A stretch of DNA of 26,081 nucleotides from the IMG/VR virus record IMGVR_UViG_3300005466_000065, positions 1 through 26,081 of that record; one strand, written 5' to 3'. The position numbers were made by a program, and so were the translations under genes. This document shows positions 1,641 to 24,281 of this stretch, piece after piece; within the stretch, counting starts at the first letter, position 1; each line of letters starts with the position of its first letter. The notes under the pieces are model-generated. The model did not search any database. It worked only from the letters and a program-made list of their open reading frames with translations, and was not told the origin of the DNA. Source of the stretch: a virus.

Positions 1641-1941
1641 CACGTGAGCATCCGAGGCTGGGCTGGTACGACGACAGCCTGGCGCCCCTCTCGGAGCCAG
1701 CAAGATGAACCGGTTATCTGCCAGGCGGCGGGTCCGGGTCAGAAGGCGGGCTGTTCCGAGCTGAGAGAAGGCAACTCTGGATGCGCTCCCGCCGACCTCC
1801 GCACCGAAAAAGCAGTCTGACCTTCGATTTCCAGAAGGGAACTCGGGGTCTGCCCAGGGCCTGGACTTACCGAACAAATATTCGCTATCTCCGTGAAGCT
1901 TGCAGCCTACAACCAATCCTGCTACGGGCGGAATTAGGCAA
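1641..1941. other. 301-base non-coding stretch
   Basis: I see no convincing gene on either strand. The stretch is less G/C-biased than its surroundings and holds one copy of the dispersed site (1864-1891), followed immediately by a degenerate version of the start-associated element (1885-1901). A minus-strand frame runs through it, but it has no start signal and also runs antisense through the nuclease gene. I looked for a tRNA and found no T-arm or acceptor pairing. It marks the border between the replication and packaging regions, so a promoter region is plausible. Confidence 0.5.
1864..1891 (+). repeat. Dispersed palindromic site, copy 1
   Basis: The left arm GACTTACCGAA (1864-1874) is perfect, the core CAAATA is at 1875-1880, and the right arm retains only TTCG. 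The left arm plus four more bases is identical to copy 4 read on the other strand (CTGGACTTACCGAA). It lies in the gap before the gene at 1942. Confidence 0.85.
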
Positions 1942-2220
1942 ATGAACCAGGCGGCTCTCCCTACTTTGCTTAATGACGTCGTTGGGCGGCTGGTCTACCT
2001 GCGGCGGATGAGCAAGGCAGCGCAGCAGGCCTACGAGCGCGTGGGAGACCTACGCCAGCGCGTGCGCTGCAGCCTGGTCGCGGAATATGTCGCCCGCGTG
2101 CTTGACCGGGAGAACTCGCCCTACTTCCGCCGGGACCTGACACAGGCCCTCGAAGCCATCGGCTGGCGGTCCGTGAACACCGACAACGTGCGCAGCTGGA
2201 AAGGGGTCGTCGCGAAATGA
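1942..2220 (+). CDS. Small helical protein of unknown function
   Basis: This 92-residue protein starts at ATG 1942, preceded by AGG five bases upstream. A TTG at 1900 in the same frame is the alternative and would overlap the degenerate control element. The sequence is helical, with an Arg-rich middle (DLRQRVRCSLVAEYVARVL) and a C-terminal segment with aromatic and charged residues. No family is recognised. It overlaps the next gene by four bases (ATGA) and is the first gene of the packaging block, so a regulatory or packaging-accessory role is possible but unproven. Confidence 0.6.
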   Translation: MNQAALPTLLNDVVGRLVYLRRMSKAAQQAYERVGDLRQRVRCSLVAEYVARVLDRENSPYFRRDLTQALEAIGWRSVNTDNVRSWKGVVAK

Positions 2221-2690
2221 CCAAGCTCGAGCGCGAATGGGCGGCCAAGCTCCGAGAGACCGGCTTCCACGACCTGGAGGGGGCGGAACGAGACGGCCCG
2301 CTCTCCAACGCAGGCAAGCCCCACGCGAAGTACGAGACGGCCGACGGGCACCGGCGCCTCGCCAACCACCTGACGGACGGAGCCGCCTACCAGCAGGCCG
2401 CCCGTGACCTGCTGTGGGCACGCCGCTGGCCAACGGCCGCCGACCGGCGCATCTGGGAGATGCACGTGGACGGCTCGGGCCTCCGGGAGATCACCGCCGC
2501 GCTGGACGTGAGCTGGCACCGTGCTTCGAAGGTGCTCCACGAGTGCCAAGCGCGAATGACCCAAAGTAACCAAATGACCAAGGGGGATAGATGCGACAGG
2601 CGAAAGATTCGCCAGCTGATTCGAAGGTGCGAGCCACGCGTCCTGGAGAAGCTGGCGCTGGCGCTGGCGCGGACCCTGACGCTCTCCTGA
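2217..2690 (+). CDS. Helix-turn-helix protein (DNA-binding, packaging region)
   Basis: This 157-residue protein contains a helix-turn-helix-like segment at about 88-113 (GLREITAALDVSWHRASKV), resembling sigma-factor region 4 or invertase/transposase type DNA-recognition helices. The N-terminal half is charged and contains a WARRW segment at 67-71. The gene sits two places before the large terminase, where small-terminase or regulatory DNA-binding proteins are usual. Its last 100 bases also lie inside the next gene in a different frame; third-position G/C preference stays high in this frame through the overlap, so the long C-terminus (RRKIRQLIRRCEPRVLEKLALAL) appears to be genuinely coding. 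Confidence 0.65.
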   Translation: MTKLEREWAAKLRETGFHDLEGAERDGPLSNAGKPHAKYETADGHRRLANHLTDGAAYQQAARDLLWARRWPTAADRRIWEMHVDGSGLREITAALDVSWHRASKVLHECQARMTQSNQMTKGDRCDRRKIRQLIRRCEPRVLEKLALALARTLTLS

Positions 2691-2938
2691 ACGTTGGCCT
2701 GGCCATCGTCGGCGACCAGCTGGACCGCATCAGGCAGGTGCGAGGTAAGGGGCCGCTTCCAGCGCGCCACGCCATGGCGCTCGCCGGCTACCTGCGCGCG
2801 CTCTCAGCCGTGCGGCGGGACCGCAACCCTGGCAAAGGCGGGGCGGGGAAGCTGGCAGGCAAGAGCGTGGCCGAGCTGCTGGAGATCATCCGCCATGATC
2901 CGGAGCTCGCGGAAGCCCTGGGGTCCACCGGGCAGTGA
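2591..2938 (+). CDS. Putative small terminase subunit
   Basis: This 115-residue protein directly precedes the large terminase, with a four-base overlap (GTGA). ATG 2591 has the good ribosome binding site AAGGGGG five to ten bases upstream, which decides the start despite a 100-base out-of-frame overlap with the previous gene. The N-terminal 30 residues are of low complexity (Gly/Ala/Pro). The rest is helical (QLDRIRQVRGKG and LAGKSVAELLEIIRHDPEL), compatible with an oligomerising small terminase that recognises DNA for packaging. The assignment rests mainly on position; no helix-turn-helix is obvious here, so the previous gene could instead be the DNA-recognition subunit. Confidence 0.5.
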   Translation: MRQAKDSPADSKVRATRPGEAGAGAGADPDALLNVGLAIVGDQLDRIRQVRGKGPLPARHAMALAGYLRALSAVRRDRNPGKGGAGKLAGKSVAELLEIIRHDPELAEALGSTGQ

Positions 2939-4482
2939 CCTCGGCCGAAGTGCTGGCGGCGCTCATCACCGCCAAGGAGGCCGAGCGGTCGCGCGTCCGG
3001 TGGGATCCGGCGGCGTTCGCCGGCGACCACGGGCCACAGCTGGCGTTCGTGACCGAGAAGGCTCCGTTCACCCACGTCATGTGCGCGCGCCAGTCGGGAA
3101 AGTCATGGGGCGACGACTTCACCCTGGGGTGCAACGCGGACGAGCACCCGCAGAGCGTTGGCCTGTTCCTGGGGCTGAAGGGGACGGGTGTGAAGGTCTC
3201 GAACTGGGTGCCCATCTGGAAGCAGGGGCTCTGCGATATGCACGAAATCCCCCAGGACTGGCACAATGAGACCTCGATGGTGACGACCTGGCCGAACGGC
3301 AGCCGGGTCATGTTCGGGGGTACCGACGACCTCAGCAACGTGAAGAAGTTCCTGGGCAACAGCCTGCGGAACTACGGCATCGTCATCATCGACGAGTGCC
3401 AGGACCAGCCGGATGGGGTCCTGCGCTACATCCTAAATACGCTCCTGCCCCCGATGCTGGGACCGAAGTCGCGGGTCATCCTGTCTGGCGTGCTGCCGGA
3501 CGTGCCAGCCGGCTACTTCTACGAGCTGGCCCACCCGGCATCGCTGAACGGCGAGGCGTGCACGTGCAAGGGCTGGCGCCACCACGAATGGGGGCGAGCT
3601 GCCAACGTGCACACCCCCGAGGCAATGGCCCAGCTTCGGAAGTACATGGACGACCACGGGCTGACCGAGAAGGACCCCCAGATCCAACGTGACTGGTACA
3701 TGCAGCGCGTGTGGGACATGGCGGCCACGGCCTACCGCTACAGCCGCGAGCGCAACGGCTACGAGGCGGACCAGCCCGAGTGGGTGAGCGAGGTGGAATG
3801 GGGCGTGGGCGTGGCCAAGGCGGCCGAGCCGCACGAGGGCATCGACGAGTTCACGATCGGCATCGACCCGGGCGGCGGGGACCGGACCAGCATCGTCGTG
3901 TGGGGCTGGGGCGACCACACCACGGAGATTCAGCAGGTGGCCGAGTGGGTCACGCCCAGGGACGCCCACACGCCGCTGTCTGCCATCGCCGAGGCTCTCT
4001 CCGTGATGGTGCAGCACTACCCCACGGGGCTCATCTTCTGGGACCCGGGCTCGGGCTCAATGGAGATCGACACGTTCGGGACCGACTACGGCATCCCGCT
4101 CGTGCGTGCCGCCCAGAAGACCGACTTCCCCGGCCAGGTCCGCCGCGTGAACGACCTGCTCTCGAAAGGCACGCTCAAGGTCATCATCGGCTCCGCGCTC
4201 GAGGAGGACTACCAGCGCGCCCGCTTCGACACCGACGCGCGCGCCAAGGGCTCCTGGAAGTGGGCGAGCCAATGGCACCCGGACCCAAGTGAGGCAGGGC
4301 GCTACGGCCTCCAGGGCTACTGGAACACGTACACGCCGCCAGCCCCGCCCAAGCCCATCGAGCTGCAGAAGCGGGAGGCGGCCGAGCTGCGCCAGCGCCG
4401 CGTGACGGCCATGAAGGCGGGACGACGGTTGGAAGAGGACGACGAACGCAGCATTTTCCAGGAGGACGAACCATGGACGTGA
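2935..4482 (+). CDS. terL: Terminase large subunit
   Basis: This is the DNA-packaging motor ATPase and nuclease, docking on the portal to pump and cut the genome. The 515 residues match the family in length. Walker A is ARQSGKS at 51-57, and Walker B with the catalytic Glu is IVIIDE at 149-154. The C-terminal RNase H-like nuclease domain shows the expected acidic residues: D311 in GIDPGGGDRTS, D370 in GLIFWDPG, and a probable third Asp near 450 in WHPD. The GTG start at 2935 overlaps the previous stop. The gene ends nine bases before copy 2 of the dispersed site and overlaps the next gene by ten bases. Confidence 0.93.
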   Translation: MTSAEVLAALITAKEAERSRVRWDPAAFAGDHGPQLAFVTEKAPFTHVMCARQSGKSWGDDFTLGCNADEHPQSVGLFLGLKGTGVKVSNWVPIWKQGLCDMHEIPQDWHNETSMVTTWPNGSRVMFGGTDDLSNVKKFLGNSLRNYGIVIIDECQDQPDGVLRYILNTLLPPMLGPKSRVILSGVLPDVPAGYFYELAHPASLNGEACTCKGWRHHEWGRAANVHTPEAMAQLRKYMDDHGLTEKDPQIQRDWYMQRVWDMAATAYRYSRERNGYEADQPEWVSEVEWGVGVAKAAEPHEGIDEFTIGIDPGGGDRTSIVVWGWGDHTTEIQQVAEWVTPRDAHTPLSAIAEALSVMVQHYPTGLIFWDPGSGSMEIDTFGTDYGIPLVRAAQKTDFPGQVRRVNDLLSKGTLKVIIGSALEEDYQRARFDTDARAKGSWKWASQWHPDPSEAGRYGLQGYWNTYTPPAPPKPIELQKREAAELRQRRVTAMKAGRRLEEDDERSIFQEDEPWT

Positions 4483-4877
4483 AGCTCGATAGTGAACAAA
4501 TATTCGGAAACGAGGTGCGCGAGGCCGAGCCGCCCACGTACCAGTCGCCGCTCCTGGCCCTGCTGGACGAGCGGGCGAAGGGACCGCCCAAGCCCATCGA
4601 GATTCCCGAGCCCACGCCCGAGATTGCCGCCCGCATCCGGCAGATGGAGGAGCGCCGCGAGCAGGAGCTGGACAAGGCCCGTGACCGCGCCTACGGCGGT
4701 GACGAGGGCCTGAAGGCCCGCGGCATCGGCGCCCCCATCCGCGACCGTGACCTGTCGCCCGACCAGGTGGCGTGGCTGAACGAGCGGCGCGCCGAATGGA
4801 AGGCGTGGCACGAGGACCCGGCTAACGCGGACTGGCGGCCCGAGGGCGGCGAGCTGGATGTGAGCGGCCTGCCATGA
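4473..4877 (+). CDS. Hypothetical charged protein between terminase and portal
   Basis: This 134-residue product starts at ATG 4473 with a strong binding site (AGGAGG at 4460-4465), so the start is well supported. Codons 7-12 (S-E-Q-I-F-G) are encoded by copy 2 of the dispersed palindromic site, meaning the site lies inside coding sequence. The middle is Pro/Glu-rich, with a long helix (RQMEERREQELDKARDRAYG), and the end contains the WLNERRAEWKAWHED segment. No family is recognised. The position suggests a head or packaging accessory. Confidence 0.7.
   Translation: MDVKLDSEQIFGNEVREAEPPTYQSPLLALLDERAKGPPKPIEIPEPTPEIAARIRQMEERREQELDKARDRAYGGDEGLKARGIGAPIRDRDLSPDQVAWLNERRAEWKAWHEDPANADWRPEGGELDVSGLP
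4492..4507 (+). repeat. Dispersed palindromic site, copy 2 (inside coding sequence)
   Basis: GTGAA, core CAAATA (4497-4502), TTCGG. It lies nine bases after the terminase stop and within the first codons of the next gene. The right flank TTCGGAAACG is identical to that of copy 7. The left arm has GTGAA in place of CCGAA, as in copy 6. Confidence 0.85.
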
Positions 4878-5134
4878 AGCTGCCCGAGGCCATCAAGCGG
4901 CTGTTCACGAAGGACGAGGTGTTCACCTTCGTGGCGCACGACCAGACGGAGCCGACCATCGTGGTGTACGAGCCCGACTGCAAGGTGGACCAGATCCACG
5001 CGGTCAACGGCTACCTGCTCGTGCCGCACCCCATCGCCAGGCGCCTGCCCGCGCCCCACGGCAACATCACGCACGCGCAAGGAAACGTCCCCTGTTGGAA
5101 GCTGGTCGACCTGTCGGACGCGGGGCCGAATTAG
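4874..5134 (+). CDS. Hypothetical 86-residue protein
   Basis: ATG 4874 overlaps the previous stop (ATGA). The product looks like a small beta-rich globular domain (VFTFVAHDQTEPTIVVYEP, then VNGYLLVPHPIA) with two cysteines. No family is recognised. The TAG stop at 5132-5134 directly abuts copy 3 of the dispersed site. Confidence 0.6.
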   Translation: MKLPEAIKRLFTKDEVFTFVAHDQTEPTIVVYEPDCKVDQIHAVNGYLLVPHPIARRLPAPHGNITHAQGNVPCWKLVDLSDAGPN

Positions 5135-5149
5135 CGAACAAATATTCGG
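5135..5149 (+). repeat. Dispersed palindromic site, copy 3
   Basis: CGAA, core CAAATA (5139-5144), TTCGG. It starts at the base after a TAG stop. Eight bases separate it from the start-associated element at 5158. Confidence 0.87.
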
Positions 5150-5157
5150 ATAGTCGG

Positions 5158-5170
5158 CGATCGCCGTGGC
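5158..5170 (+). promoter_or_regulatory. Start-associated element (copy a)
   Basis: CGATCGCCGTGGC matches the consensus exactly and is followed by six bases and the GTG start at 5177. No Shine-Dalgarno sequence is present between the element and the start. It also forms the perfect 12-base palindrome CGGCGATCGCCG at 5155-5166. Confidence 0.75.
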
Positions 5171-5176
5171 TTCCAC

Positions 5177-5422
5177 GTGAAGCCACCCGAGCTGGAGGCC
5201 ATTCTAGACGTCCTCGACCGCCACCCGCGCGTCACGTCCGTGCACATCGCCGAAGGCGAGGTGCGCCTGACGCTCGGTGAGGTGCTCGTCGCCCCCGAGG
5301 AGGGCACGAAGGACGACCGGGACGAGTCGTTGGAACTGCCCGCGGGCGTGGTCGACCCGCGGGACCGCATCCGTGAGATCTACCGGAAGGCCGGCATGCG
5401 GAACGGCAAGGTGCCGGCGTGA
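5177..5422 (+). CDS. Hypothetical 81-residue protein preceding portal
   Basis: The GTG start at 5177 is chosen because the conserved element CGATCGCCGTGGC sits six bases upstream, as before five other genes. The product begins MKPPELEAILDVLDRHPRV and has a beta-type centre (VHIAEGEVRLTLGEVLV), followed by an acidic linker and a C-terminal helix (PRDRIREIYRKAGM). It overlaps the portal start by four bases (GTGA), so translation of the portal is probably coupled to it. No family is recognised. Confidence 0.6.
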   Translation: MKPPELEAILDVLDRHPRVTSVHIAEGEVRLTLGEVLVAPEEGTKDDRDESLELPAGVVDPRDRIREIYRKAGMRNGKVPA

Positions 5423-7398
5423 ACTTCGACTTCTCGGGCAACAGCACGCCCGGAGCGGTCGCCCCCCAGCCATGGTGGCCTGACCCCAAGGGGAGGTTCG
5501 AGAGCGGGCCAGGCGTCACCCAGGGCGCGGCCATGATTGCCACGGCCAGGGCCATCAGCACGAGCCCCACCGAGGAACTGCGCCAGGACCTGAACCTCCT
5601 CTACGGCTCGATGTACGAGGGCCGCCCGCTCACGAGCCTCTACCAGTACGGCGGCCAGGCGACCGCGGCACGCGGCGAGCTCACGGCCATTGGATCAGGC
5701 GAGGTGACCTGGAACGTCGTCCGCTCGGTCGTGCAGACCGTCGGCTCCCAGGTCTCGCGCTCGCGCCCGCGCGCGCGGTTCGTGACCAGCGGCGGCGACT
5801 ACAAGCAGAAGCGCAAGGCAAAGAAGCTCACGCAGCTAAACGACGGCCTGTTCCACCACTGCCGGGTGTACGAAAAGACCCAACAGGTCTTCATCGACGC
5901 CGGCGTGTTCGACGTGGGGGCCATCGAGGTGGCCCGCGACGGCAACGTCCCGAAGGTGAGCCGCGTCCTCGCCTGCGAGGTCATGGTGGATGCCAACGAC
6001 GGCATCTACGGCGAGCCCCGGAGCATGTACCGGCGCCGCTACGTGGACCGCGGCGTCCTGCTGGCCAAGTACGGCCGCCTCGCGAGCGGCAAGGGCGTCG
6101 AGGACGCCTTCAAGTCGCGCGAGGAGCGCGACCAAGCGCTGGCCACCGTGTCGACGTCCAGCCCCGTCATGGACGGGCAGCAGACGAACCTCGTCGAGGT
6201 CTTCGAGGCGTGGCACCTGCGCAGCTCGGACGAGGCCAAGGACGGCTGGCACGTCATCGCCGTCGAGGGCATCCAGCTCGTCTCCGAGCCCTACGAGCGC
6301 GACTACTTCCCGATCATCCTGTTCCCGATGGACCCGGCCATTGCGGGCCCCTACGGCGTGTGCGCGGCGAGCGTCCTGCTCGCCATCCAGATGCAAATCA
6401 ACACGCTCCTGGACAAGATCGCGAAGGCCCAGCACCTGGCCTGCGTCCCGCGCATCGGCATCCCGATGTCCGCCAAGCTCGGGACCGTCTCCAACGCCAT
6501 CGGTGCCCACTACCGCTTCGCCGGCACCCAGGGCGCCATCTTCTCCACGCCCCCCGCGCTCTCGGCCGAGGTCTACGAACACCTCGAACGGCACATGGAG
6601 AAGGCCTTCTCGCTCTACGGCGTGAACGCCCAGATCGCCGCCGGCCAGAAAGAGGCTGGCCTGACCGCCGCGGTCGCCATCCGCGAGTCCCTGGACATCC
6701 AGACGGCCCGCTTCGCCGTGCTCTCCCAGCGCTGGGAGCAGCTCCACATGGACATCGCCCGCCGTCTGACCGACCTGGCGCGCGAAATCTACGATGACGA
6801 CCGCGCGGCGGTGGTGGCGGCGCCCGGCACCAAGTTCCTGGAGACCATCAGCTGGAAGGACATCGACCTCGAGGAGGACGAGTACGTCATCCAGCCCTAC
6901 CCGGTGAGCCTCCTGCCCACCACGCCCCAAGGCAAGATCGACAAGATCGGAGACCTGGTCGACCGAGGCATCTGGAGCGCCAAGCGCGCCGAGGCCGCGC
7001 TCGATGACCTAGACCCCGACGCCAATATGAGCGCCGAACGGGCCCTGGAGGAGGACGCCGAGCGCATCTGCGACGAGATGCTGACCGACGGCAAGTACAC
7101 CACGCCCGATCCAACGATGGACCTGACCATCTGCCTGAAGACCGCCGCCACCTACGCCGCCATGGGCCGCAACCAGAAGGCCCCCGAGAAGAACCTGGAC
7201 CTGCTCTACCGGTTCATGGACGACGTCGCGGCCCTGCAGCAGCAGCTCACACCCGCGCAGCCTCCCGCGCCAGCGCCTGGGACGGGAGCCGTGGCCGTCG
7301 CCCCAGGCGCGCCGCCGGTCATCCCGGGAACGCCTCCTGGCACTGACCAAGGCGGCGGCAGCGCCCCGCCTGCGGCGCCAGCTTTGCCGCCCCCGTAA
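5419..7398 (+). CDS. Portal protein
   Basis: This is the dodecameric ring at the capsid vertex through which DNA enters and leaves and to which the tail binds. The 659 residues fit podovirus-type portals. Supporting signs are the early segment with RQDLNLLYGSMYEG, the WNVVRSVVQTVGSQVSRSRPRARF stretch, the FEAWHL and YFPIILFPMDP strands, the wing/stem-like helix containing QMQINTLLDKIAKAQ, and the late helix QTARFAVLSQRWEQLHMDIARRL, in the usual order. The C-terminal 50 residues are Pro/Ala/Gly-rich and probably disordered. The GTG start is coupled to the previous gene, and the TAA stop abuts copy 4 of the dispersed site. Confidence 0.85.
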   Translation: MNFDFSGNSTPGAVAPQPWWPDPKGRFESGPGVTQGAAMIATARAISTSPTEELRQDLNLLYGSMYEGRPLTSLYQYGGQATAARGELTAIGSGEVTWNVVRSVVQTVGSQVSRSRPRARFVTSGGDYKQKRKAKKLTQLNDGLFHHCRVYEKTQQVFIDAGVFDVGAIEVARDGNVPKVSRVLACEVMVDANDGIYGEPRSMYRRRYVDRGVLLAKYGRLASGKGVEDAFKSREERDQALATVSTSSPVMDGQQTNLVEVFEAWHLRSSDEAKDGWHVIAVEGIQLVSEPYERDYFPIILFPMDPAIAGPYGVCAASVLLAIQMQINTLLDKIAKAQHLACVPRIGIPMSAKLGTVSNAIGAHYRFAGTQGAIFSTPPALSAEVYEHLERHMEKAFSLYGVNAQIAAGQKEAGLTAAVAIRESLDIQTARFAVLSQRWEQLHMDIARRLTDLAREIYDDDRAAVVAAPGTKFLETISWKDIDLEEDEYVIQPYPVSLLPTTPQGKIDKIGDLVDRGIWSAKRAEAALDDLDPDANMSAERALEEDAERICDEMLTDGKYTTPDPTMDLTICLKTAATYAAMGRNQKAPEKNLDLLYRFMDDVAALQQQLTPAQPPAPAPGTGAVAVAPGAPPVIPGTPPGTDQGGGSAPPAAPALPPP

Positions 7399-7420
7399 CC
7401 GAATATTTGTTCGGTAAGTC
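7393..7420 (-). repeat. Dispersed palindromic site, copy 4 (reversed orientation)
   Basis: Read on the minus strand: GACTTACCGAA, core CAAATA (7409 to 7404), TTCGGTTACGG. It is the only copy with the asymmetric core reversed. The portal stop codon TAA lies inside one arm. Confidence 0.87.
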
Positions 7421-7428
7421 CAGCCGAT

Positions 7429-7441
7429 CGATCGCCGTGGC
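7429..7441 (+). promoter_or_regulatory. Start-associated element (copy b)
   Basis: CGATCGCCGTGGC matches the consensus exactly, 14 bases after the inner edge of site copy 4 and six bases before ATG 7448. CCAGCC (7420-7425) and GGCTGG (7439-7444) flank it as an inverted repeat. Confidence 0.75.
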
Positions 7442-7447
7442 TGGGGC

Positions 7448-8690: not shown

Positions 8691-8710
8691 TGCACTGAAA
8701 GGACACGCCC

Positions 8711-9979
8711 ATGCCGTCTGGCGCAAATACCACCACCGCATCGAACTTCATCAAGCGGTACTACTCGCCCAAGATGACCGTGAACACGGTCTCCAAGGTC
8801 GAGAGCCGCTCCCTCAACATCATCAAGCACGACACCGGCGGATCCGGCGACGATTACAGCTTCCTGACCATGTACGGGGACAACCCGTCGGGTTCGCAGG
8901 ACTTCAACGAGGCGCAGACCACCGGCCAGAACGCGATGTCTGGCGGCGCGCAGTTCAAGGTCACCTGGTGCAACGACTTCCAGGTGCCCTCCGTCGGCAA
9001 GGACATCATCGCGAAGACCAAGAACAAGGCCGGCGGCTGGATCCCCCAGCTGAAGAACGAAATGGACAGCTCGCTGCGCTACTCGGCGCACCGCCGGTCC
9101 GTCGCGCTCTTCACCACGGGGTTCGGCGAGCTGGCGACGGTCACCAACGCCATCGGCGCGGGCTTCGTCATCACGCTGGGCAACCCCCGCACGGGCTCGG
9201 TCGACCGCTCGGTGGCCTACCGGTTCGTCAAGGGCATGACCCTGGTGTTCTCGGCGAGCATCAGCGGCAACGCCCTGCGCGCCGGGCAGTCGGCCAAGAT
9301 CACGAAGGTCGACTACACCGCCGGCACCATCACGCTGGACACGGCGCTCAACGCCATCTCCGGCCTGACCATCAACGACGTCATCTTCACGAAGGGTGAT
9401 CGTCAGGACTCGGGCACGCCGTCGCGCCTGCGCCCTGCGGGCCTGCCCGCCTGGGTGCCCACCACGGCCCCCAGCGCGTCGGAGAACTTCTTCGGCCAGG
9501 ACCGCACGGTCAACTCGTTCCTCTACGGGTGGATCATCGACGGCACCACGACCGGAAAGAGCCTGGCGCAGTCCCTCGTGGAGGCGGCCAACTACTGCTC
9601 GACCGTCGGCCACGCCGAACGGCTCGTGAGCTGCGTCTCGGTGGACAAGTTCATCGAGCTGTCGGCCTCCATCGAGAACAAGCAGTACACCCAGATCACC
9701 GGGCGGGGCGGCACGGGCTTCAAGACGATCGTCATCTACGCCGACGGCGTGGAGCTGCCGGTCATCTCGGAGCAGTACTGCCCGAACAGCGAGGCCTACG
9801 TCTACGACCCGGGTGCCCTTCACCACCCGAGCATCGGGGACGCGCCCCACATCGACGCCGAGGACGGCAACCAGATCTTGCGCCAGTCGGCCGCGGCCGG
9901 CGTCGAGGTCCGCTACGAGGCCTTTGAGTGCTTCAGCGGCGAGAACTGCGCCGCGATGGCAGCCGTCAAGCTCGCGTAA
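8711..9979 (+). CDS. Major capsid protein
   Basis: This 422-residue protein forms the icosahedral shell. The binding site AAAGGA at 8698-8703 before ATG 8711 is among the better ones in the window, in line with high expression. It follows the scaffold and shows the layout of an HK97-fold coat protein: an N-terminal arm, a long middle beta-rich region (GFVITLGNPRTGS, AKITKVDYTAGTITLD) and a late segment (SVDKFIELSASIE, FKTIVIYADGVELPVISEQY, then the VEVRYEAFECF strand), as seen in coat proteins of N4- and P22-like groups. The exact family cannot be fixed by eye. Confidence 0.8.
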   Translation: MPSGANTTTASNFIKRYYSPKMTVNTVSKVESRSLNIIKHDTGGSGDDYSFLTMYGDNPSGSQDFNEAQTTGQNAMSGGAQFKVTWCNDFQVPSVGKDIIAKTKNKAGGWIPQLKNEMDSSLRYSAHRRSVALFTTGFGELATVTNAIGAGFVITLGNPRTGSVDRSVAYRFVKGMTLVFSASISGNALRAGQSAKITKVDYTAGTITLDTALNAISGLTINDVIFTKGDRQDSGTPSRLRPAGLPAWVPTTAPSASENFFGQDRTVNSFLYGWIIDGTTTGKSLAQSLVEAANYCSTVGHAERLVSCVSVDKFIELSASIENKQYTQITGRGGTGFKTIVIYADGVELPVISEQYCPNSEAYVYDPGALHHPSIGDAPHIDAEDGNQILRQSAAAGVEVRYEAFECFSGENCAAMAAVKLA

Positions 9980-9988
9980 GGAGCCGCC

Positions 9989-13926: not shown

Positions 13927-14672
13927 TGGCCAGGCCGCAGACGGCCTACCGACCTATCCAGGTCGCCGACGAGGCGACCATGCGCAACCTACGCAAGATC
14001 CAGGAGGCGTTCACCCGCATCACGGAGGCCCAGGCAGCCGCCGCGGTCTCCGGGCGCCTCCTGCGAGCGGTGCGACTGACCGGGACATCACTGGCCTCGA
14101 CCCCAGGAACGACGCTCGCGATTATCGACGGCTGGGGAGGCGCCGGACAGGGCGGTGGCGCCGTGGCGGGCGTCCAGGACGGTGGCGGCGGGGGCGGCTC
14201 GGGAGCTAAAGGGCGCCTCGTGACCACCAGCATCCCCGCGACATGGAATTTTGTGCTCGGTGCCGGCGGATCCTCCGGCGGCGTCGGTGCGAACGGGCAG
14301 GCAGGCGCGGCAAGCACATTCACCGACGGAGTGGTCACGATGACATGCCCGGGCGGCGCTGGCGGCCAGGTCAGCGGCGTCCCAGCCGCGGCCACCGCGG
14401 CGGCCACGAACGCGACGGTGGCCGGCGCAGGCGCGCCGGGCTTCCCTGGCCTGTTCACCGGCTTCACGTTTTGGGGCGGCGCTGGGGCGTCATCCGAGTA
14501 CGGCGCTGGCGGCGGCTTCAGGATGGGCAGCGCCGGAGACGGCGATGGGAACGCGGCGGTGGGATTTGCCGCTGGCGGCGGGGGAGCGCTCAGCAGCGGC
14601 GCCGGCACTGCCTACAAGGGCGGCGCGGGAGGGGCGGGCACCGGGTTCTTGTGGGAATTCGGCGGGACCTGA
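13926..14672 (+). CDS. Glycine-rich tail tip protein
   Basis: This is a 248-residue product starting in a TGATG overlap. Residues 1-50 form an anchor helix (ATMRNLRKIQEAFTRITEAQ). From about 60 the sequence becomes a strand plus glycine-rich pattern (IIDGWGGAGQGGG, GGGGSGAKG, FVLGAGGSSGGVGANG) typical of phage glycine-rich receptor-binding or tip domains, where polyglycine helices pack around a core and the loops contact the host. The end, GGAGGAGTGFLWEFGGT, is a normal terminus for such domains. A single copy of the dispersed site begins directly after its TGA, followed by the convergent nozzle gene. Confidence 0.65.
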   Translation: MARPQTAYRPIQVADEATMRNLRKIQEAFTRITEAQAAAAVSGRLLRAVRLTGTSLASTPGTTLAIIDGWGGAGQGGGAVAGVQDGGGGGGSGAKGRLVTTSIPATWNFVLGAGGSSGGVGANGQAGAASTFTDGVVTMTCPGGAGGQVSGVPAAATAAATNATVAGAGAPGFPGLFTGFTFWGGAGASSEYGAGGGFRMGSAGDGDGNAAVGFAAGGGGALSSGAGTAYKGGAGGAGTGFLWEFGGT

Positions 14673-14696
14673 TACCGAACAAATATTCGGTAACTA
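14673..14696 (+). repeat. Dispersed palindromic site, copy 5 (between convergent genes)
   Basis: TACCGAA, core CAAATA (14680-14685), TTCGGTAACTA. It fills the whole 21-base gap between a plus-strand stop and a minus-strand stop (TAG at 14696-14694). Confidence 0.87.
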
Positions 14697-17600
14697 CGGC
14701 TTGCGGGAGCCGCCGGACATCGAGTGCGAGGTGCCCTGCCGGAACTGGCCGCCCTTCACGCCCACCGTGAACGAGAGCGCCGACCAGGCGCTGCCCTGGG
14801 TCTGGTAGTCGGACGTGTCTTCGATCTGGAGGTCCATCGCCGTGACCTTCTGGACCGCTGGGAAGAAGTCGAGCACGTAGGGATCGGGGTTCACGGTCGC
14901 GTCGAAGGTGAACGGCCGCTCGCTGGCCGGCAGGCCCGTCTCCGGGTCGGTGAGCCGGTGGTTGTCGGTGATCGTGATCTTGACCTTCTCGCTCGCGTAC
15001 CATTCGCCCGTGAGCGAGCCCTGGTAGACCCGCGCGAAGCCGTTCACGCCCGCGAAGTTGATGTCCGAGACCTTCACCCGCCGCGTGAAGGCGGCGCCGG
15101 CGGTGAACGCCCCGCCCGCCAGCGCGACGCCATCCTGCCAGCGCGTCAGATCCTCCTTCAGCAGCTTGCCGGTGCTGGTGAGCAGGTACCAATCGCCCTG
15201 GTGGACGATGCTGTGCACGCACGCCTGGCCCGTGAAGGTGGTCCAGATGGGCTGGCCGGCAACCTCGGTCGCCCAGGTGTTCAGCACGAACGTCGTGCCT
15301 CCCTCGGTCGTGAACCGAACCTCGGGATAGGTCGGGTGGACCGTGGCGCCCGAGACCGTCTGATTGGCGGCCGTCGTCTCCACCGCGGCGCCGATGTACT
15401 TCACGCCCAGGGATCGGTTGAGCAGCCAGAAGCCGCGCTTCGAGCTGTAGAAAATCACGCCCAGCTCGGTGAGGACGACCGAGCGCGGCTGCTCGCTGCC
15501 CACCGCCACGGGCAGGAGCGAGTACGACGGGATCGTGCCCGCGCCGGTGTTGTCGGGGAAGTCCCCCGCCCAGACGTAGATCGAGTCCTTCTTGATGGCG
15601 ATGAGGTGCCCGTCCATCGACATGAGCTTGTAGATGGGCCCTGTGCTGTCGGGCGTCTCCGCGATGAAGGCGTCGTTGAACCCGACCGCCGTGCCGGGTG
15701 TGTACGTCTTCGAGAAGCGCACCCGCCAGGGCTGCTCGGCGTCGATGCCGAAGACCCGGCCCGCGTGCTCGATGACGTCGTTCAGCGCGGGCGGCGCGAC
15801 GTTCTCCAGCTCGACCGTACCCGTTTCGCTGGACACGGAGAGCGGCTCGCCAGCCGCCAGCGTCGCCTCGCTGGCCGTGTCGGTGAAGGTGACGACCGCC
15901 CGGGTGGCCGTGTCGACGGTGTAGACCGAGGGGGTGACGCGATAGTAGATGTCGCCGGTGCCGTCCTTCGGCGTGCGCAGGATCTCGAGCTGCACGAAGT
16001 TGCGCACCGTGGTCGCGTCGGGGCCGTAGATGCTCACCTGCACGGAGCTGTTCGCGTTGACCGTCGTGATGGCGACGGGCGTGCTGATCGCGGAGACGTA
16101 GTCCTGACCGGCCGAGTCGACCCACTTCCAGCGGACCACGTAGGAGCGCGTCCCCGGGTCGATGCTACCGCTCGCGGCCGCGCCCTCGACCAGCTTGGGG
16201 ATCTCCGGTTTCGTTCGGAAGCCCTGCTCGTGCACCGGATAGGTCGAAAGGGGGCGCGTGGGGGTGTTGTCGACCTCGAACAGCTCGGATCCGGGGAAGA
16301 GCGCAACGCCGCCAAAGGAGAGGGGGGATCCGACGTTGGTGGGTCGGAAGGTGAGGGCGATGTCTGCGAGCTCGTAATTGAGCACCACGTCGCCCGAAAC
16401 CGCCTCGGCCTTCACGGCATGACCGAACAGCCCGTGGAGCATGCCGGCCGAGTCGGCAGCCAAGGAGGTGAGCGCGAACGTCGTGTGGGCGCCGGCGCTG
16501 CCGGGCATCGCCTTGCCGATGACCTGTTGCAGGAGGCCGGTAAGCGCGGTCTTCTCGACCGCCGCGATGAACAGTGTGGGCTGCTGGGCGACGACCGTTC
16601 CGGCCGCCTGGCTCGAGTTGTAGAGCAGGGCGACGTAGCCGAATGCCTTCGGGGTGCCGAGGAAGGCGATCCGGCTCGCCAGGGAGACGTTCGACATCCA
16701 CGGGCTCACGCCCGCCGTGGCGTCGACCTGATCGATGACTCGATGGTTGACGCCAGAGCCGTCCGTGATCTGCCGGTCGATGAGCACGTACGGCGCCGTG
16801 GCGGTGCCGTTGTAGGCCGACGCCCCCGTCATGTTCTTGACGGTGGTCACGGGCGCCGCCGCCTGCGTGGCGGTCGCCGTGATGGCCAGGGTCGTGCTGT
16901 CGATCGTCTGGATCTTGAGGCCGTTGGCGGCGTTCAAGGTCGCGTAGTAGAGGCTCGTGCCGAACGTCGGCTGAGACAGCCAGCAGAGCGCCACGTCAGG
17001 CTGATTCGCGGCCGTGGCGTCGCTGACCGTGGTCCCCACCGCCAGAGCGGTCGACAGGAGGCTGCGCACGTAGGTGCCGGCGGCCGACCGGTAGAGGAGC
17101 GCGATGTGGGTCGAGTCGAACCCGACCTGGACATCGTAGTCGGTGCCGGCGAGCGCGGAGCCCGCGGCGATGACCGTCGTGGTAGTGATCGCGTAGGTCG
17201 TCGCATCCATCGAGGCGCCCTTGATGGCGTTGGCCTCCTTCCAGAAGACATACCACTTGTTACCGAGCGCGACCGTCTTCACGTTCGTGGCGCCGGAGAC
17301 GTTGAAGGTGGCCTCGCCGATGGGGACGCCGCTCGCGTCGCGGACCATCCAGTTGACGACTCCCGCATCGTCGTACCAGGTGTAGAGGCCCTGGTTCCCG
17401 ACGAACGAGACGTCCCGGCTGTCCTGGGTCGGCGTCTGCGTCCCGGCGGCCTGCCTGATGGGGACCTGCAGGTTCGTGCGCGTGAGACCGATCGCCCCGA
17501 AGCCAAAGTAACCGGCCGTGGCGCCGCCGCTCACCGTGAGGAACGTCTGCGTCGCGCTGTTGAAGCGCTGCACGCCCGTCCCCGCGTCCTGCACCAGGAT

Positions 17601-17831
17601 GCCGCCGGCATGGCTCAGCATCCGGTACGGGTTGATGAAGTTCGCCGACCCGGACAGGTCCGCCACCTCGACCAGCCCGTTGCGCCTGACCAACTCGATG
17701 CCCGCCGCCGTGCCCTTCTGGATCCGGGTGTTCTCGGCCACCTCGAGCTGCCCGAGCACCCCCACGGTCCCAGGCGCCTTCTGGTTCAGCCCCTGGAGGA
17801 GCACCGTCACCGGCTGCTTGCGAAGCGGCAT
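14694..17831 (-). CDS. Tail nozzle / tail tubular protein B-like protein
   Basis: From ATG 17831 the product has 1045 residues. The N-terminus has the form seen in podovirus nozzle proteins (MPLRKQPVTVLLQGLNQKAP, then GQLEVAENTRIQKG), and the late part has the propeller signature EL-GVIFYSSKRGFWLLNRSLG followed by VKYIGAAVE. Such proteins form the distal tail tube that controls genome release. ATG 17831 is preferred because it has the conserved element (CGATCGACGTGGC) seven bases upstream. An in-frame ATG at 17915 would add MSTIRMTLALVVALSAC and 11 more residues, a lipoprotein-type signal not expected on a nozzle. The gene runs against all neighbours and is bounded by dispersed sites 5 and 6. 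Confidence 0.8.
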   Translation of the reverse strand: MPLRKQPVTVLLQGLNQKAPGTVGVLGQLEVAENTRIQKGTAAGIELVRRNGLVEVADLSGSANFINPYRMLSHAGGILVQDAGTGVQRFNSATQTFLTVSGGATAGYFGFGAIGLTRTNLQVPIRQAAGTQTPTQDSRDVSFVGNQGLYTWYDDAGVVNWMVRDASGVPIGEATFNVSGATNVKTVALGNKWYVFWKEANAIKGASMDATTYAITTTTVIAAGSALAGTDYDVQVGFDSTHIALLYRSAAGTYVRSLLSTALAVGTTVSDATAANQPDVALCWLSQPTFGTSLYYATLNAANGLKIQTIDSTTLAITATATQAAAPVTTVKNMTGASAYNGTATAPYVLIDRQITDGSGVNHRVIDQVDATAGVSPWMSNVSLASRIAFLGTPKAFGYVALLYNSSQAAGTVVAQQPTLFIAAVEKTALTGLLQQVIGKAMPGSAGAHTTFALTSLAADSAGMLHGLFGHAVKAEAVSGDVVLNYELADIALTFRPTNVGSPLSFGGVALFPGSELFEVDNTPTRPLSTYPVHEQGFRTKPEIPKLVEGAAASGSIDPGTRSYVVRWKWVDSAGQDYVSAISTPVAITTVNANSSVQVSIYGPDATTVRNFVQLEILRTPKDGTGDIYYRVTPSVYTVDTATRAVVTFTDTASEATLAAGEPLSVSSETGTVELENVAPPALNDVIEHAGRVFGIDAEQPWRVRFSKTYTPGTAVGFNDAFIAETPDSTGPIYKLMSMDGHLIAIKKDSIYVWAGDFPDNTGAGTIPSYSLLPVAVGSEQPRSVVLTELGVIFYSSKRGFWLLNRSLGVKYIGAAVETTAANQTVSGATVHPTYPEVRFTTEGGTTFVLNTWATEVAGQPIWTTFTGQACVHSIVHQGDWYLLTSTGKLLKEDLTRWQDGVALAGGAFTAGAAFTRRVKVSDINFAGVNGFARVYQGSLTGEWYASEKVKITITDNHRLTDPETGLPASERPFTFDATVNPDPYVLDFFPAVQKVTAMDLQIEDTSDYQTQGSAWSALSFTVGVKGGQFRQGTSHSMSGGSRKP

Positions 17832-17915
17832 CGAATCAGCCACGTCGATCGGCTTGTCGATGCCGCACGCCGATAGAGCCACCACCAGGGCCAGGGTCAT
17901 TCGTATCGTGCTCAT
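17832..17915 (-). other. In-frame lipoprotein-signal-like extension upstream of the nozzle start
   Basis: This 84-base stretch reads MSTIRMTLALVVALSAC followed by GIDKPIDVADS and runs without a stop into the nozzle. It has a basic start, a hydrophobic core and an LSAC lipobox with Cys17, as in lipoprotein signal peptides. The last codons (PIDVA) are simply the conserved element read as protein. Either it is translated from a leaderless message as part of the nozzle, or it is a 5' leader holding a remnant of a lipoprotein gene. Confidence 0.5.
17839..17851 (-). promoter_or_regulatory. Start-associated element (copy c)
   Basis: On the minus strand it reads CGATCGACGTGGC, one base from consensus, then TGATTCG and the ATG at 17831. 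It supports that ATG as the nozzle start and shows that the element follows gene direction. Confidence 0.65.
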
Positions 17916-17950
17916 GCCCAGATGATACGGACGATACGATACGCGGTCAA
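17916..17950 (-). promoter_or_regulatory. Sigma-70-type promoter for the nozzle gene
   Basis: TTGACC (17950-17945), a spacer of exactly 17 bases, and TATCAT (17927-17922). The expected transcription start, seven bases further on, is at 17915, the A of an ATG. The promoter lies directly downstream of site copy 6, which ends 12 bases before the -35 box. Confidence 0.6.
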
Positions 17951-17961
17951 GGGTGCCGTTA

Positions 17962-17977
17962 GTGAACAAATGTTCAC
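17962..17977. repeat. Dispersed palindromic site, copy 6 (variant, operator-like)
   Basis: GTGAA, core CAAATG (17967-17972), TTCAC. Both arms differ from the other copies but remain complementary to each other, and GAAC-N4-GTTC is complete. It lies between divergent genes, beside a sigma-70 promoter. Confidence 0.8.
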
Positions 17978-18015
17978 GATTGCGCGCGTCGGGCGCCCGG
18001 CGAGACCATCGAGGC

Positions 18016-18528
18016 ATGCGCAGGCTGCTATTGGCGGTGGTCCTACTGGTCGGGTGTGGCGGCGAGGGCGGCCCGATAGGTCCTAGCGGAAGCGGCGGAG
18101 CGACGGTGGCGCCGCCGCCGTCGGCGGTCGTTGGCGGCTGGGGGGCGACACTGTCATCGTCATGCATCCTGCTGCTCGGACTTAAAGACGACGGCAGCTA
18201 CACTCAGGGCGCGGCGTGCGTCGAGGCATCCGGTCGGAACGACTTGAGTGAGGAGAAGGGCACCTACATCGAAGATGCGACTACCGAGCGCATCTACTTC
18301 ACGATCACGGACTCCACGTGTGCCGTTACCACCAAGGGCTACTACTACGGCTATTCGGTGGCGCGAGGGAAGTCGCTGACGATCATGGCAGCTGATGCGT
18401 TGGTCGTGATGACCCCGCTCGAATCATGGTCGGGGAGCGGGTCGCCACCGAGCATGGGCGGTGTGTTCACCCTTGGGTGTCTCGACAAGGGAGTCTTCAC
18501 GCCGGGCCCGCTGATGCCGGTCCCATAA
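18016..18528 (+). CDS. Lipoprotein (phage cargo gene)
   Basis: This is a 170-residue product. MRRLLLAVVLLVGC is a clear lipoprotein signal with lipobox LVGC (Cys14), followed by a Gly/Ser/Pro linker and a compact beta-type domain with several cysteines (WGATLSSSCILLLGLKDDGS, GAACVEAS, YFTITDSTCAVTTKGYYYGY, FTLGCLDKG). The layout resembles small lipocalin-like lipoproteins of environmental Gram-negative bacteria. It would be anchored in a host membrane. The gene has no part in a virion, stands alone between the nozzle and ejection blocks, is flanked by sites 6 and 7, and has a less extreme codon bias than its neighbours, all typical of an inserted cargo (moron) gene. Superinfection exclusion is one possible role. 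Confidence 0.7.
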   Translation: MRRLLLAVVLLVGCGGEGGPIGPSGSGGATVAPPPSAVVGGWGATLSSSCILLLGLKDDGSYTQGAACVEASGRNDLSEEKGTYIEDATTERIYFTITDSTCAVTTKGYYYGYSVARGKSLTIMAADALVVMTPLESWSGSGSPPSMGGVFTLGCLDKGVFTPGPLMPVP

Positions 18529-18529
18529 A

Positions 18530-18545
18530 CCGAACAAATATTCGG
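18530..18545 (+). repeat. Dispersed palindromic site, copy 7
   Basis: CCGAA, core CAAATA (18535-18540), TTCGG, beginning two bases after the lipoprotein stop TAA. The right flank matches copy 2 (TTCGGAAACG). Eleven bases separate it from the start-associated element. Confidence 0.87.
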
Positions 18546-18556
18546 AAACGGTCGCC

Positions 18557-18569
18557 CGATCGCGGTGGC
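18557..18569 (+). promoter_or_regulatory. Start-associated element (copy d)
   Basis: CGATCGCGGTGGC, one base from consensus, seven bases before ATG 18577. No Shine-Dalgarno sequence is present. A GTG at 18565 inside the element is in frame and is the alternative start. Confidence 0.7.
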
Positions 18570-18576
18570 CCTGGTG

Positions 18577-20196: not shown

Positions 20197-20203
20197 GGAG
20201 ACC

Positions 20204-20920: not shown

Positions 20921-22638
20921 CCTTAGACGACGAGCTGGAAAGCGCGCTCCACCCCGACGACCTGGGGAGCATTGGCGAGCAGGACACGGCGCCGGTCGAC
21001 CCGGCGCGCATGGCCGCGCCGGAGATCGCCCCCGCCATCGCTCCCCCGATCGCGCCGACCATCGCCCCCCAGCCGGCGGCCCAGACGCCGTTCGACGCGC
21101 CAAAGCCCCCCGGGCTCACCACCAAGAAGGTGACGCTCTCGCCGGCCGAGACGGAGAACCTCGGCGCCCTGGACGCGAACACCCAGGCGCGCAAGGACAC
21201 CGTCGAGCAGGAAGGCAACCTCGCCGTCGACAAGGCGGTTGACCGCGCGGCCCAGGCGCAGGCGGAAGCCGACCTCAAGGAGCAGCAGGCGCAGCAGGTG
21301 GCCGACCAGCAGGCCCAGCAGCGGAAGCTCATCGAGGAGCGCCAGCACCGCGACGAGGCCGAATACGCGAAGTACCGCGAGATGGGCCTGAAGGACCCCG
21401 ACGCGGGGAAGGGTTTCCTCAACCGCGTGGGCGCGGCGCTGGCGATCGGACTCGGCCAGTACAGCGCGGCCATGAACCACACGGAGAACCAGGCGGCGCG
21501 CATCTTCGAGCAGGCCCGGCGCGAGAATCTGGAGCTGCAAAAGGCCAACATCGAGAAGCAGCGCGAGGCCAGCATCCGCGCCGGCAAGGACGTCGAGCAG
21601 GCGAAAGCCGAGGCCGCCGAGGCGCTGCATAACCTGCAGATCAAGAACGTCGCCCAGATCGACGCGTTCCGCGCGAAGTTCGCCGCCGAGAGCGAGCGAA
21701 TGGGCATCCCCGCCGCCCGCATCCAGGCGTCGAAGACCATGCAGGAGCTCGAGCGCCAGGCGCTGGAGGCCCGCGAGAAGCACCTGGAGAGCACGCGGAC
21801 GTTCAGCCGGGACCTGACGCCGAAGGAGCTGCGCGCGGGGAAGGGCGGCGGTGGCGGCGGTGGAGCCGGCGGGGGAAGTCTCTCCGCGCGCGAGAAGCTG
21901 AACGAGTATGCGACCCGCAACCCGGGCGACAGCGCGGGGCTCTATCGGCTCGCCGGCACGCTGGGGTTCAAGTCCGACAAGGACGCGGTCAGCGCCGTCA
22001 CGGACGCCATCAAGAATAGCAAGGCCCCCGAAGGCCAGCAGAAGCACGCCGCTGCCGGCGCGACGATGCTGCGCGGGATCTCGACGCTCGAAAAGCTGCA
22101 CGCGAAGGGCTACCAGCCGACAGAGAAGGACTGGCTGAAGTGGCAGAAGAACCAGGACGACGTCCAGCTGTCGAAGGCGAACGCCGAGAAGGGGAATCGG
22201 GCCGGGGCGATGTTCGAACGCGGCCTGCAGACGGTGGGTCTCTCGGCCAAGACCGAATACGACGGCCTGTCCGACGACACCAGGGCCTACTTCGAAAACG
22301 TGAAGCGCATCCTGGAGTCGGTGGGACGCGAGCAGTCGGGCGCCGCCATCTCGCGGAACGAGTGGGACAACTTCGGCGGCCAGTACGGCCTGCAGGCGTC
22401 CGGTGGGCTCGCCGCGGCCAAGGAATACGCCCGCGACCGGATGACGCTGTCCGGGGTCGCCGGGCGCCAAGTCGAGGCCGCTGGCGGCGTCCCGAAGGCC
22501 GCCCCTGCGCCCGCCGCCAGCGGCGGTGACAAGTCCGAGGCCGAGCGCGCGAAAGCGCTGCTGGCGGACCCGCGCGCGCAGAACCTGTCCCCGGCGAAGC
22601 GCGCCTACCTGACCAAGTTGGCCCGCGGTGCGCAGTGA
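20917..22638 (+). CDS. Putative internal virion / ejection protein with long coiled coil
   Basis: This is a 573-residue product, GTG start coupled to the previous stop. After a Pro-rich N-terminal linker, residues about 75-300 form a very long Ala/Glu/Gln/Lys helix (for example KEQQAQQVADQQAQQRKLIE). Within it is a less polar segment, RVGAALAIGLGQYSAAMNH, a motif often seen in podovirus ejection proteins that may insert into or line a channel. A Gly-rich hinge follows at about 308-325, then a helical C-terminal domain (VKRILESVGREQSGAAISRNEWDNFGGQYG). The N-terminus (TLDDELESAL) resembles that of the next gene. No peptidoglycan hydrolase motif is seen. Confidence 0.6.
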   Translation: MTLDDELESALHPDDLGSIGEQDTAPVDPARMAAPEIAPAIAPPIAPTIAPQPAAQTPFDAPKPPGLTTKKVTLSPAETENLGALDANTQARKDTVEQEGNLAVDKAVDRAAQAQAEADLKEQQAQQVADQQAQQRKLIEERQHRDEAEYAKYREMGLKDPDAGKGFLNRVGAALAIGLGQYSAAMNHTENQAARIFEQARRENLELQKANIEKQREASIRAGKDVEQAKAEAAEALHNLQIKNVAQIDAFRAKFAAESERMGIPAARIQASKTMQELERQALEAREKHLESTRTFSRDLTPKELRAGKGGGGGGGAGGGSLSAREKLNEYATRNPGDSAGLYRLAGTLGFKSDKDAVSAVTDAIKNSKAPEGQQKHAAAGATMLRGISTLEKLHAKGYQPTEKDWLKWQKNQDDVQLSKANAEKGNRAGAMFERGLQTVGLSAKTEYDGLSDDTRAYFENVKRILESVGREQSGAAISRNEWDNFGGQYGLQASGGLAAAKEYARDRMTLSGVAGRQVEAAGGVPKAAPAPAASGGDKSEAERAKALLADPRAQNLSPAKRAYLTKLARGAQ

Positions 22639-24281
22639 GCCTACTCGATGAATTGGAGGCCGAGGTCAAGGAGGAGCGCCCGGCCTTCCTGACGAAGAAC
22701 CCGAAGATGTCGCTCGACGACATCGAGGCCGAGGTGAAGTCGGCCCCCGCGCCAAAGGAGACGCGGCCGTTCCCAGACGTCAAAGGCGAGATGGAGGGGC
22801 TGAAGCGAGACTATGAAGCGGCGGCGAAGCCGAGCCGCCTGGACGCGGCATTCGAAGGGATCGCTCAGGGCGCGTCCCTTGGGTTCGGCGACGAGCTCAC
22901 GGCCGCCACCGGTCGCCTTGGCGATCTCGTAACCGGCAAGGAGGGCCCCTCCTACACGGAGCGCCGCGACGCCATCCGCGCGTACATGAACCGGGCGCGC
23001 AGCGACCACCCATGGGCCTTCGGCGGCGGTGAGCTCGCAGGAGGCACCGCGGTGACGGCGGCCATCCCCGGCCTCGGCCCAGCGGCGGGCGCGGGATGGC
23101 GCGGCGTCGCGCTCGCGGGCGCAAAGCAGGGCGCGGTTTCCGGCGTTGGCAACAGCAACGCCGACCTGACGAAAGGCGAGGTGCTGCCGCTCGCGCGCGA
23201 CGCCGCGGTAAGCGCCGGCGCCAACGCGCTGATCGGCGGCGCCATCGGCAAGGTCATTCGCAAGGCCCCGGAGCGGGTTGACGACCGGCTCCTGCGCAAC
23301 ATCTCCCGCGGCGAGGCCGGGGGCGCGGCGAAGGACAAGCTCTACAAGAACCTCGTGGCGAAGGCCGGGGACGAGGTGTCCGAACTGAACGACACCCTGT
23401 CTCGCTTCCCGGGCGTGAAGCAAGCCCTGGCCACGAGCTCGGCTGCGAATCCCACGAAGGCCGCCAGGGTTGCGACGGCCGTGGTCAAGGACATCGGCGA
23501 GAGGCTGGACCCCATCTACGAGGCGATCGACAAGGGCCCCGCCGTCCCGAAGGCCGTCGATCTGCAGAACGCTCTGATCGAGCTGCGCCAGGGCCTGGTG
23601 AGTGCCGGGAAGACCGCCCAGGCGGACGCCGTCGAGACCTTCGAACGCCACATCGCCAAGCACTTCGGCGACGGAGACGCGGTCCTCGACGCCGCCACGA
23701 TCCCGGCATCGAGCCTGCGCAACATGAAGCGCACCGTGGGCGAGGTCGCCTTTAAGGACCTCTCGGCCGCGTCCACCCCTGACGCCGTGCAGGCGAAGCG
23801 CGCTATCTATGGCGCCCTCGACGACGCCATCAACCAGGCCGGCGCCAACACGCCCGGCGTGGATATTGCGAAGCTGGCCCGGCTGAACAAGGACGCGAGC
23901 ACCATGATCGCGGTGCGCGACACCCTGGCCGATCGGAGCACGAAGGCCCTCGCAGGCAGGACGAGCCTCTACCAGAACCTGCTGCGCTCGGGCGTCATGG
24001 GGGCCGCTGCCGGCAACATTATGGGCTCGGGCGGCGGCGGCGTGGGGACCGCCGCGGCCGCGCTGGCGGCGCCGTCCGTTATCAAGGGCGCCGCCCAGGT
24101 CGGCCGGCGCGTGGACTACCGGCTGGCCCAGCTCGTGCGCGCCGCCCGCGCCGGGAGCAAGCCTGCCCAGCTCGGGCAGATGGCGCTTGAACTCGGCATG
24201 TCCCGCGCCGCCGCCGAGGCTATCGCAGAGAAGGGTCCGGGCGTATTCGAACAAATATTCGGTAAGTCAGACGCTCGCTGA
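22635..24281 (+). CDS. Putative internal virion / ejection protein
   Basis: This is a 548-residue product, GTG start coupled to the previous stop. The N-terminus has two copies of a short acidic motif (LLDELEAEVK at 3-12 and SLDDIEAEVK at 26-35). Residues 71-90 hold AFEGIAQGASLGFGDELTA, followed by YTERRDAIRAYMNRARSDHP and GGGELAGG, a combination common in virion-associated proteins of podoviruses. A Gly/Ala-rich hydrophobic zone (about 130-220) may be membrane-active. The rest is helical. The final codons (F-E-Q-I-F-G-K) are encoded by dispersed site copy 8, and the end overlaps the convergent gene by 15 bases. Confidence 0.6.
   Translation: MSLLDELEAEVKEERPAFLTKNPKMSLDDIEAEVKSAPAPKETRPFPDVKGEMEGLKRDYEAAAKPSRLDAAFEGIAQGASLGFGDELTAATGRLGDLVTGKEGPSYTERRDAIRAYMNRARSDHPWAFGGGELAGGTAVTAAIPGLGPAAGAGWRGVALAGAKQGAVSGVGNSNADLTKGEVLPLARDAAVSAGANALIGGAIGKVIRKAPERVDDRLLRNISRGEAGGAAKDKLYKNLVAKAGDEVSELNDTLSRFPGVKQALATSSAANPTKAARVATAVVKDIGERLDPIYEAIDKGPAVPKAVDLQNALIELRQGLVSAGKTAQADAVETFERHIAKHFGDGDAVLDAATIPASSLRNMKRTVGEVAFKDLSAASTPDAVQAKRAIYGALDDAINQAGANTPGVDIAKLARLNKDASTMIAVRDTLADRSTKALAGRTSLYQNLLRSGVMGAAAGNIMGSGGGGVGTAAAALAAPSVIKGAAQVGRRVDYRLAQLVRAARAGSKPAQLGQMALELGMSRAAAEAIAEKGPGVFEQIFGKSDAR
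24244..24268 (+). repeat. Dispersed palindromic site, copy 8 (between convergent genes)
   Basis: TATTCGAA, core CAAATA (24252-24257), TTCGGTAAGTC. The complete right arm matches copies 1 and 4. It lies in the last codons of the plus-strand gene and beside the stop of the minus-strand gene. Confidence 0.86.

Follow-up and report, generated by a model that had tools for sequence, protein, structure and literature searches.

To our knowledge, dispersed sites at gene ends have been firmly tied to a repressor only in the Cluster A actinophages. Cluster A (L5) stoperators are dispersed in short intergenic spaces and at promoters, and their consensus differs between related phages (PMC6550527, PMC9283540); in L5 each site is an asymmetric 13-mer to which a monomer binds and which points in the direction of transcription (PMC9283540, PMC6550527). 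The Cluster O mycobacteriophages (Corndog, Firecracker, Dylan) carry dispersed 17-bp dyads of unknown function as well as a ParB-like gene (PMC4351075). In SPbeta, a prophage-wide intergenic repeat, SPBRE, is the target of a master repressor whose fold is that of a dead tyrosine recombinase (PMC10516654), and KorB, by sliding, silences promoters at distances of up to 1.5 kb (PMC11790492).

The DNA studied here is a 26-kb viral metagenome record of an uncultured soil phage (26,081 nucleotides, analysed at full length and called the window below). Its gene content includes a primase fragment, an HNH protein, TerL, a P22/podovirus-like portal, a capsid candidate, tail genes and two divergent lipoprotein-like genes (Table 1). 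No relative of its capsid and portal was found among 50,697 records of cultured phages; IMG/VR does contain relatives of this phage, and it is these contigs, mostly fragments and annotated with our own home-made gene calls, that were compared. Genome contigs scanned for a host with the capsid and with an integrase-like protein of the relatives gave no relative. Since the gene at the right end of the window (25938-26081, +) matches the first gene of the related contig L137 (115-444; 54% over 52 residues), the region to the right probably resembles L137. An ORF at 25688-26074 (-) was rejected as a gene, being the shadow of this + strand coding gene. No repressor gene was found within the window, because it ends before the early/lysogeny region.

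The original prediction was that an AT-rich 12-mer with an invariant asymmetric core is repeated eight times in this window. The multiplicity was confirmed: GAACAAATATTC occurs seven times exactly (sites 1–5, 7 and 8 in Table 1) and the variant GAACAAATGTTC once (site 6), so that 8 copies with up to 2 mismatches were observed against 0.20 expected (at most 2 in any of 100 dinucleotide shuffles). The sites had been placed one base too far to the right, and the reversed fourth copy in fact occupies 7401-7412 (-). A 22-24 bp dyad, GTTACCGAACA-NN-TGTTCGGTAAC, has the 12-mer at its centre. When the full dyad TTACCGAACA-N2-TGTTCGGTAA was searched with up to 6 mismatches, 8 sites were again found (shuffle mean 0.15, maximum 1), and the aligned flanks gave the two-fold consensus GTTnCCGAACA-AA-TATTCGGTAAC. 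This extended consensus is symmetric over the 19 window-type sites known from the window and its relatives, with TACCGAAYA as the half-site and a spacer of 2. The asymmetry of the core, constant within the window as had been claimed, proved variable across relatives, where the symmetric dyad is the common part.

Table 1. Dyad sites and neighbouring features of the window
Feature	Coordinates	Strand	Remarks
Dyad site 1	1867..1888	+	core 1872-1883; within a non-coding gap (483 bp) ahead of gene 1900-2220
Dyad site 2	4489..4510	+	core 4494-4505; just 3' of the TerL stop (4482)
Dyad site 3	5131..5152	+	core 5136-5147; overlaps the TAG stop of gene 4874-5134
Dyad site 4	7396..7417	-	core 7401-7412, reversed; overlaps the portal TAA stop (7398)
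Dyad site 5	14672..14693	+	core 14677-14688; occupies the whole 21-bp interval separating convergent gene ends 14672 / 14694
Dyad site 6	17959..17980	+	variant core, 17964-17975; divergent lipoprotein promoter region, upstream of TTGACC-N17-TATCAT
Dyad site 7	18527..18548	+	core 18532-18543; 3 bases past the stop of gene 18016-18528
Dyad site 8	24244..24265	+	core 24249-24260; last codons of gene 22635-24281, convergent gene junction
Sigma70-like promoter TTGACC-N17-TATCAT	17915..17950	-	ATG 6 nt past the -10 (leaderless); drives lipoprotein gene 14694-17915; same module in L137
Terminase large subunit gene	2935..4482	+	phrog_2, 8.8e-22
Portal/head-tail connector gene	5419..7398	+	
Major capsid candidate gene	8711..9979	+	assigned by position; homologous across the lineage
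Large tail/lipoprotein-like gene	14694..17915	-	homologues bordered by dyads in G002, G003 and G005

The positions of the sites are strongly biased. By our own gene calls, seven of the eight cores are fully non-coding, compared with 7.4% of positions (P about 9e-8), and the core centre lies within 20 bp of a gene end in 6/8, compared with 4.0% of positions (P about 1e-7); other AT-rich 12-mers, taken as a control set, had no bias toward non-coding DNA or gene ends. The enrichment at gene borders that had been anticipated was thus borne out, as was the location of copy 8, whose host gene overlaps the end of the convergent gene at this point. Copies 2, 3, 4, 5 and 7 do follow stop codons; their first core base lies 1-4 bases after the stop at 5136, 7401, 14677 and 18532, and 11 bases after it behind TerL, rather than the 0-9 initially given. 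In most of these after-stop copies the stop codon is carried or touched by the outer dyad arm (TAGC-GAAC, TAACC-GAA, TGATACC-GAAC). Sites 1 and 4 match beyond the dyad as a 24-bp perfect inverted repeat (1861-1884 versus 7400-7423), and because of this common flank recent copying is suggested. The flank CCAGGGCCTGGA of site 1 is also present at a site of the related contig L108.

In a pattern scan the extended motif turned up in three GC-rich contigs: L067 (the same contig as L108), L073 (L137) and L103 (L138). Sites lie 3' of the TerL and portal stops in L108. In L137 they lie 3' of the integrase-like and VRR-nuclease-like genes, over the stop of an XRE-type gene and upstream of a Sak4-like gene, with one more inside a spanin-like gene. 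Other viral loci with one exact core were mostly AT-rich single copies; the one copy of L042, which falls within a baseplate-like gene, was attributed to chance.

Other members of the lineage have different dyads, often at equivalent places. G003, the closest relative (capsid 85% and portal 73% identical), lacks the window motif and has TTTCCGGTCG-N2-CGACCGGAAA eight times. The corresponding elements are TACCGGACA-N3-TGTCCGGTA in G002 (four copies), TTGGACA-N3-TGTCCAA in G004 (five), TACCGGTCA-N2-TGACCGGTA in G005 (four) and TACCGTAC-N5-GTACGGTA in L107 (two); these counts were compared with shuffles, the consensuses having been built from the very sites that were then counted. A less symmetric repeat occupies similar places in G001, and a CTG-AC-CAG dyad 3' of the portal is common to L111, L114 and L115. 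G006 and L112 (portals 63% identical) yielded no motif set. The end of TerL bears a site in the window, L108, G002, G004, L107 and L114; the end of the portal gene in the window, L108, G003, G001, L114, L111 and L107; and the end of the homologue of gene 14694-17915 in the window, G002 (14897) and G005 (7064), the dyads of the last two differing from site 5. At this end the dyad is squeezed between convergent genes in both the window and G005. A strict scan of all contigs for palindromes after stop codons, which misses imperfect sites and of which some matches fall outside these dyad types, gave 5/296 gene ends against 0/1480 in-gene windows. Similarity of structural genes is no predictor of the motif: G002 and L108 have different dyads although TerL, portal and capsid are 78-89% identical, whereas the window and L108 have the same motif with structural proteins only 25-34% identical. 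The dyad types nevertheless look related, with TACCG ... CGGTA on the outside, a variable inside and a spacer of 2, 3 or 5.

An arrangement with a dyad upstream of a sigma70-like promoter and a start codon 6-7 nt past the -10 box recurs in the window, L137, G002 and G004, with three dyad types. Between TTGAC and TATCAT of the leaderless promoter, CGTATCGTATCGTCCG is found in the window (17915-17950, -), L137 (about 2993-3030) and G002 (about 4904-4854, -); the XRE genes of L137 and G002 also contain CGTATC repeats, and repeats of this type are possibly a second operator. Promoter-proximal and gene-end sites together would fit a global regulator. Among possible functions, we give an even chance to the eight copies being operators for a phage-encoded dimeric DNA-binding protein that silences late genes in the prophage by blocking RNA polymerase. 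Such a protein would bind the 22-24 bp two-fold sites, a few upstream of promoters and most right 3' of late-gene stop codons; once bound, it would probably block RNA polymerase at initiation or during elongation, whichever the direction, and late genes would thereby be silenced in the prophage state. Silencing of both initiation and elongation is favoured because many of the sites have no promoter and are flanked by gene ends that are convergent or in tandem. We infer that a phage protein binds, that binding would block elongation and that divergence of the sites would reflect immunity specificity. Against silencing, the sites associated with promoters are not over the promoter but roughly 50-80 bp ahead of the start codon, a position that would suit an activator too; in L137 several sites neighbour early genes or fall within a gene; G006 and L112 have no motif set; and lysogeny is deduced solely from an integrase-like gene in relatives whose catalytic residues are apparently lost. 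More tentatively, we propose that the same late-gene ends are marked in each phage by a dyad of its own, and that the reader is a dimeric regulator that diverges fast and for which a ParB-like clamp or a dead recombinase may replace a classical repressor; near-identical phages would thus differ in genome-wide silencing and in immunity specificity. If operators they are, the binder might be a protein other than those named here, a possibility well short of even; the XRE protein is a candidate only slightly less plausible, the ParB-like protein is somewhat unlikely and the degenerate tyrosine recombinase improbable. The XRE protein of L137, encoded at 2439-2951, has 68% identity to that of G002 and an almost unchanged recognition helix, and the half-sites of the two phages differ by one base, with changed spacing. 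These candidates are to be compared with the extent of the contigs in mind, since the window-type contigs do not include the ParB region and G004 does not include the region of the other candidates. G002 also encodes a sigma70-region-2 protein (31778-32527, -), at the N terminus of which there is a zinc-finger-like CxxC motif. Short tandem repeats are present at contig ends (G002 near 38300-38498, about 30 bp; L106 and L134 at their starts, units of about 12 bp).

Dyads 3' of stop codons and between convergent gene ends, with stems that can form across phages, could also be RNA hairpins serving as terminators or processing signals. However, pairing of the arms within copies (71.8%) was no better than after shuffling one arm among the copies (72.5 +/- 2.0%; 19 window-type sites), an absence of covariation that would be expected of half-sites recognised separately in DNA. 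Moreover, a C-A mismatch in the stem is invariant in seven window copies, no T-tract follows the sites and some copies lie upstream of promoters, so we regard hairpins as the least probable of the readings considered. Because the arms do not covary and the orientation of the core is independent of transcription (L108 and L137), the motif is, judged by its sequence, a two-fold double-stranded DNA site and not an RNA hairpin, a promoter or an asymmetric stoperator of the L5 type. Scarcely more probable are host LexA (SOS) boxes or functionless short repeats copied between gene borders. The variant GAACAAATGTTC fits the Gram-positive LexA consensus, and the 24 bp common to sites 1 and 4 would suit copied repeats; yet the conserved part is a symmetric dyad, unrelated dyads occupy the same places in relatives, and about 118 other viral loci scanned with the G-core variant gave no multi-copy GC-rich relative.

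Two further readings keep a protein at the sites and change its nature. A ParB-like clamp (KorB/Noc-like) might nucleate at the dyads and slide to silence neighbouring promoters or organise the genome, which we consider unlikely. G002 and G004, with capsids 30% identical, have GGACA-N3-TGTCC in common and a ParB-like protein 59% identical; within its gene, which lies at 36049-37170 in G002, both carry the palindrome in a poorly conserved linker before the HTH (12/13 bases identical). The N-domain of the predicted structure matches PadC, ParB, Noc and KorB, the G004 protein matches a PHROG ParB-like family (1.3e-6), and some sites are upstream of promoters. However, the gene is in no contig with the window motif (the contigs being fragments), PF02195 was undetected, confidence of the model is limited to the N-domain and the outer arms are unlike between G002 and G004. 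No ParA was found, and ParABS partition was rejected on that ground. Considerably less probable is a dead tyrosine recombinase that became a master repressor like MrpR, with the dyads as its dispersed elements, as SPBRE in SPbeta. Integrase-like genes, whose product matches phrog_1, are located at 5996-6853 in L137, 1444-2304 (-) in G002 and 10001-10855 in L139. From motifs read by eye, three catalytic residues (first Arg, box II His, third His/Trp) are missing from the protein of L137, G002 and G007, and Lys, the second Arg and Tyr are retained, the same set as in MrpR (PMC10516654, Table 3), and a site directly follows the integrase-like stop codon in L137 and L138. On the other hand, G002 and G007 have no site at this gene end, the dyad is conserved to 2-3 bp from its centre where recombinase sites have a 6-8 bp spacer, and the C-terminal half of the predicted structure is of low confidence. 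L139 additionally has clustered TGTGGC-N5-GCCACA palindromes (18496-18889) resembling an operator cluster.

If silencing by a dimeric operator-binding protein is correct, a second lineage, with symmetric sites, would show that silencing of a whole genome at gene ends has evolved at least twice. Of greatest interest is that the sites change sequence between close relatives and keep their places; the half-site and spacer variants (N2, N3, N5) are a natural series for studying the evolution of specificity.

Like SPBRE with MrpR, the window dyad is a repeated element of intergenic regions genome-wide, but SPBRE peaks at promoters whereas window-type sites are mostly at gene ends. Dispersed palindromes and, in two relatives (G002, G004), a ParB-like gene that itself contains a site recall KorB/OB of RK2 and ParB/parS, from which the lineage differs in having no ParA and, in the window-type contigs (fragments), no ParB-like gene. 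As in L5, the sites are multiple, dispersed and in short intergenic spaces, and their consensus differs between related phages. The stoperators originally suggested hold as dispersed, gene-border protein-binding sites, which are well supported, and not as sites of the L5 kind, the window sites being two-fold dyads, free of the direction of transcription, at about 8 per 26 kb; that they would work like stoperators is, by analogy, the leading functional idea. Cluster O dyads are present in more than 30 copies, about one third of them inside genes, with no evidence of sequence change between relatives, and their half-sites are everted (TGTTCGG-N3-CCGAACA), the inverse of the arrangement in the window. 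In Firecracker and Dylan (L154 and L155) they flank the ParB-like gene on both sides, with none inside. Nevertheless, they too are dispersed and often intergenic, with an uninformative core orientation and a ParB-like gene, as in G002 and G004, and the half-site heptamer CCGAACA is identical; the lineage described here bears on these unexplained dyads.
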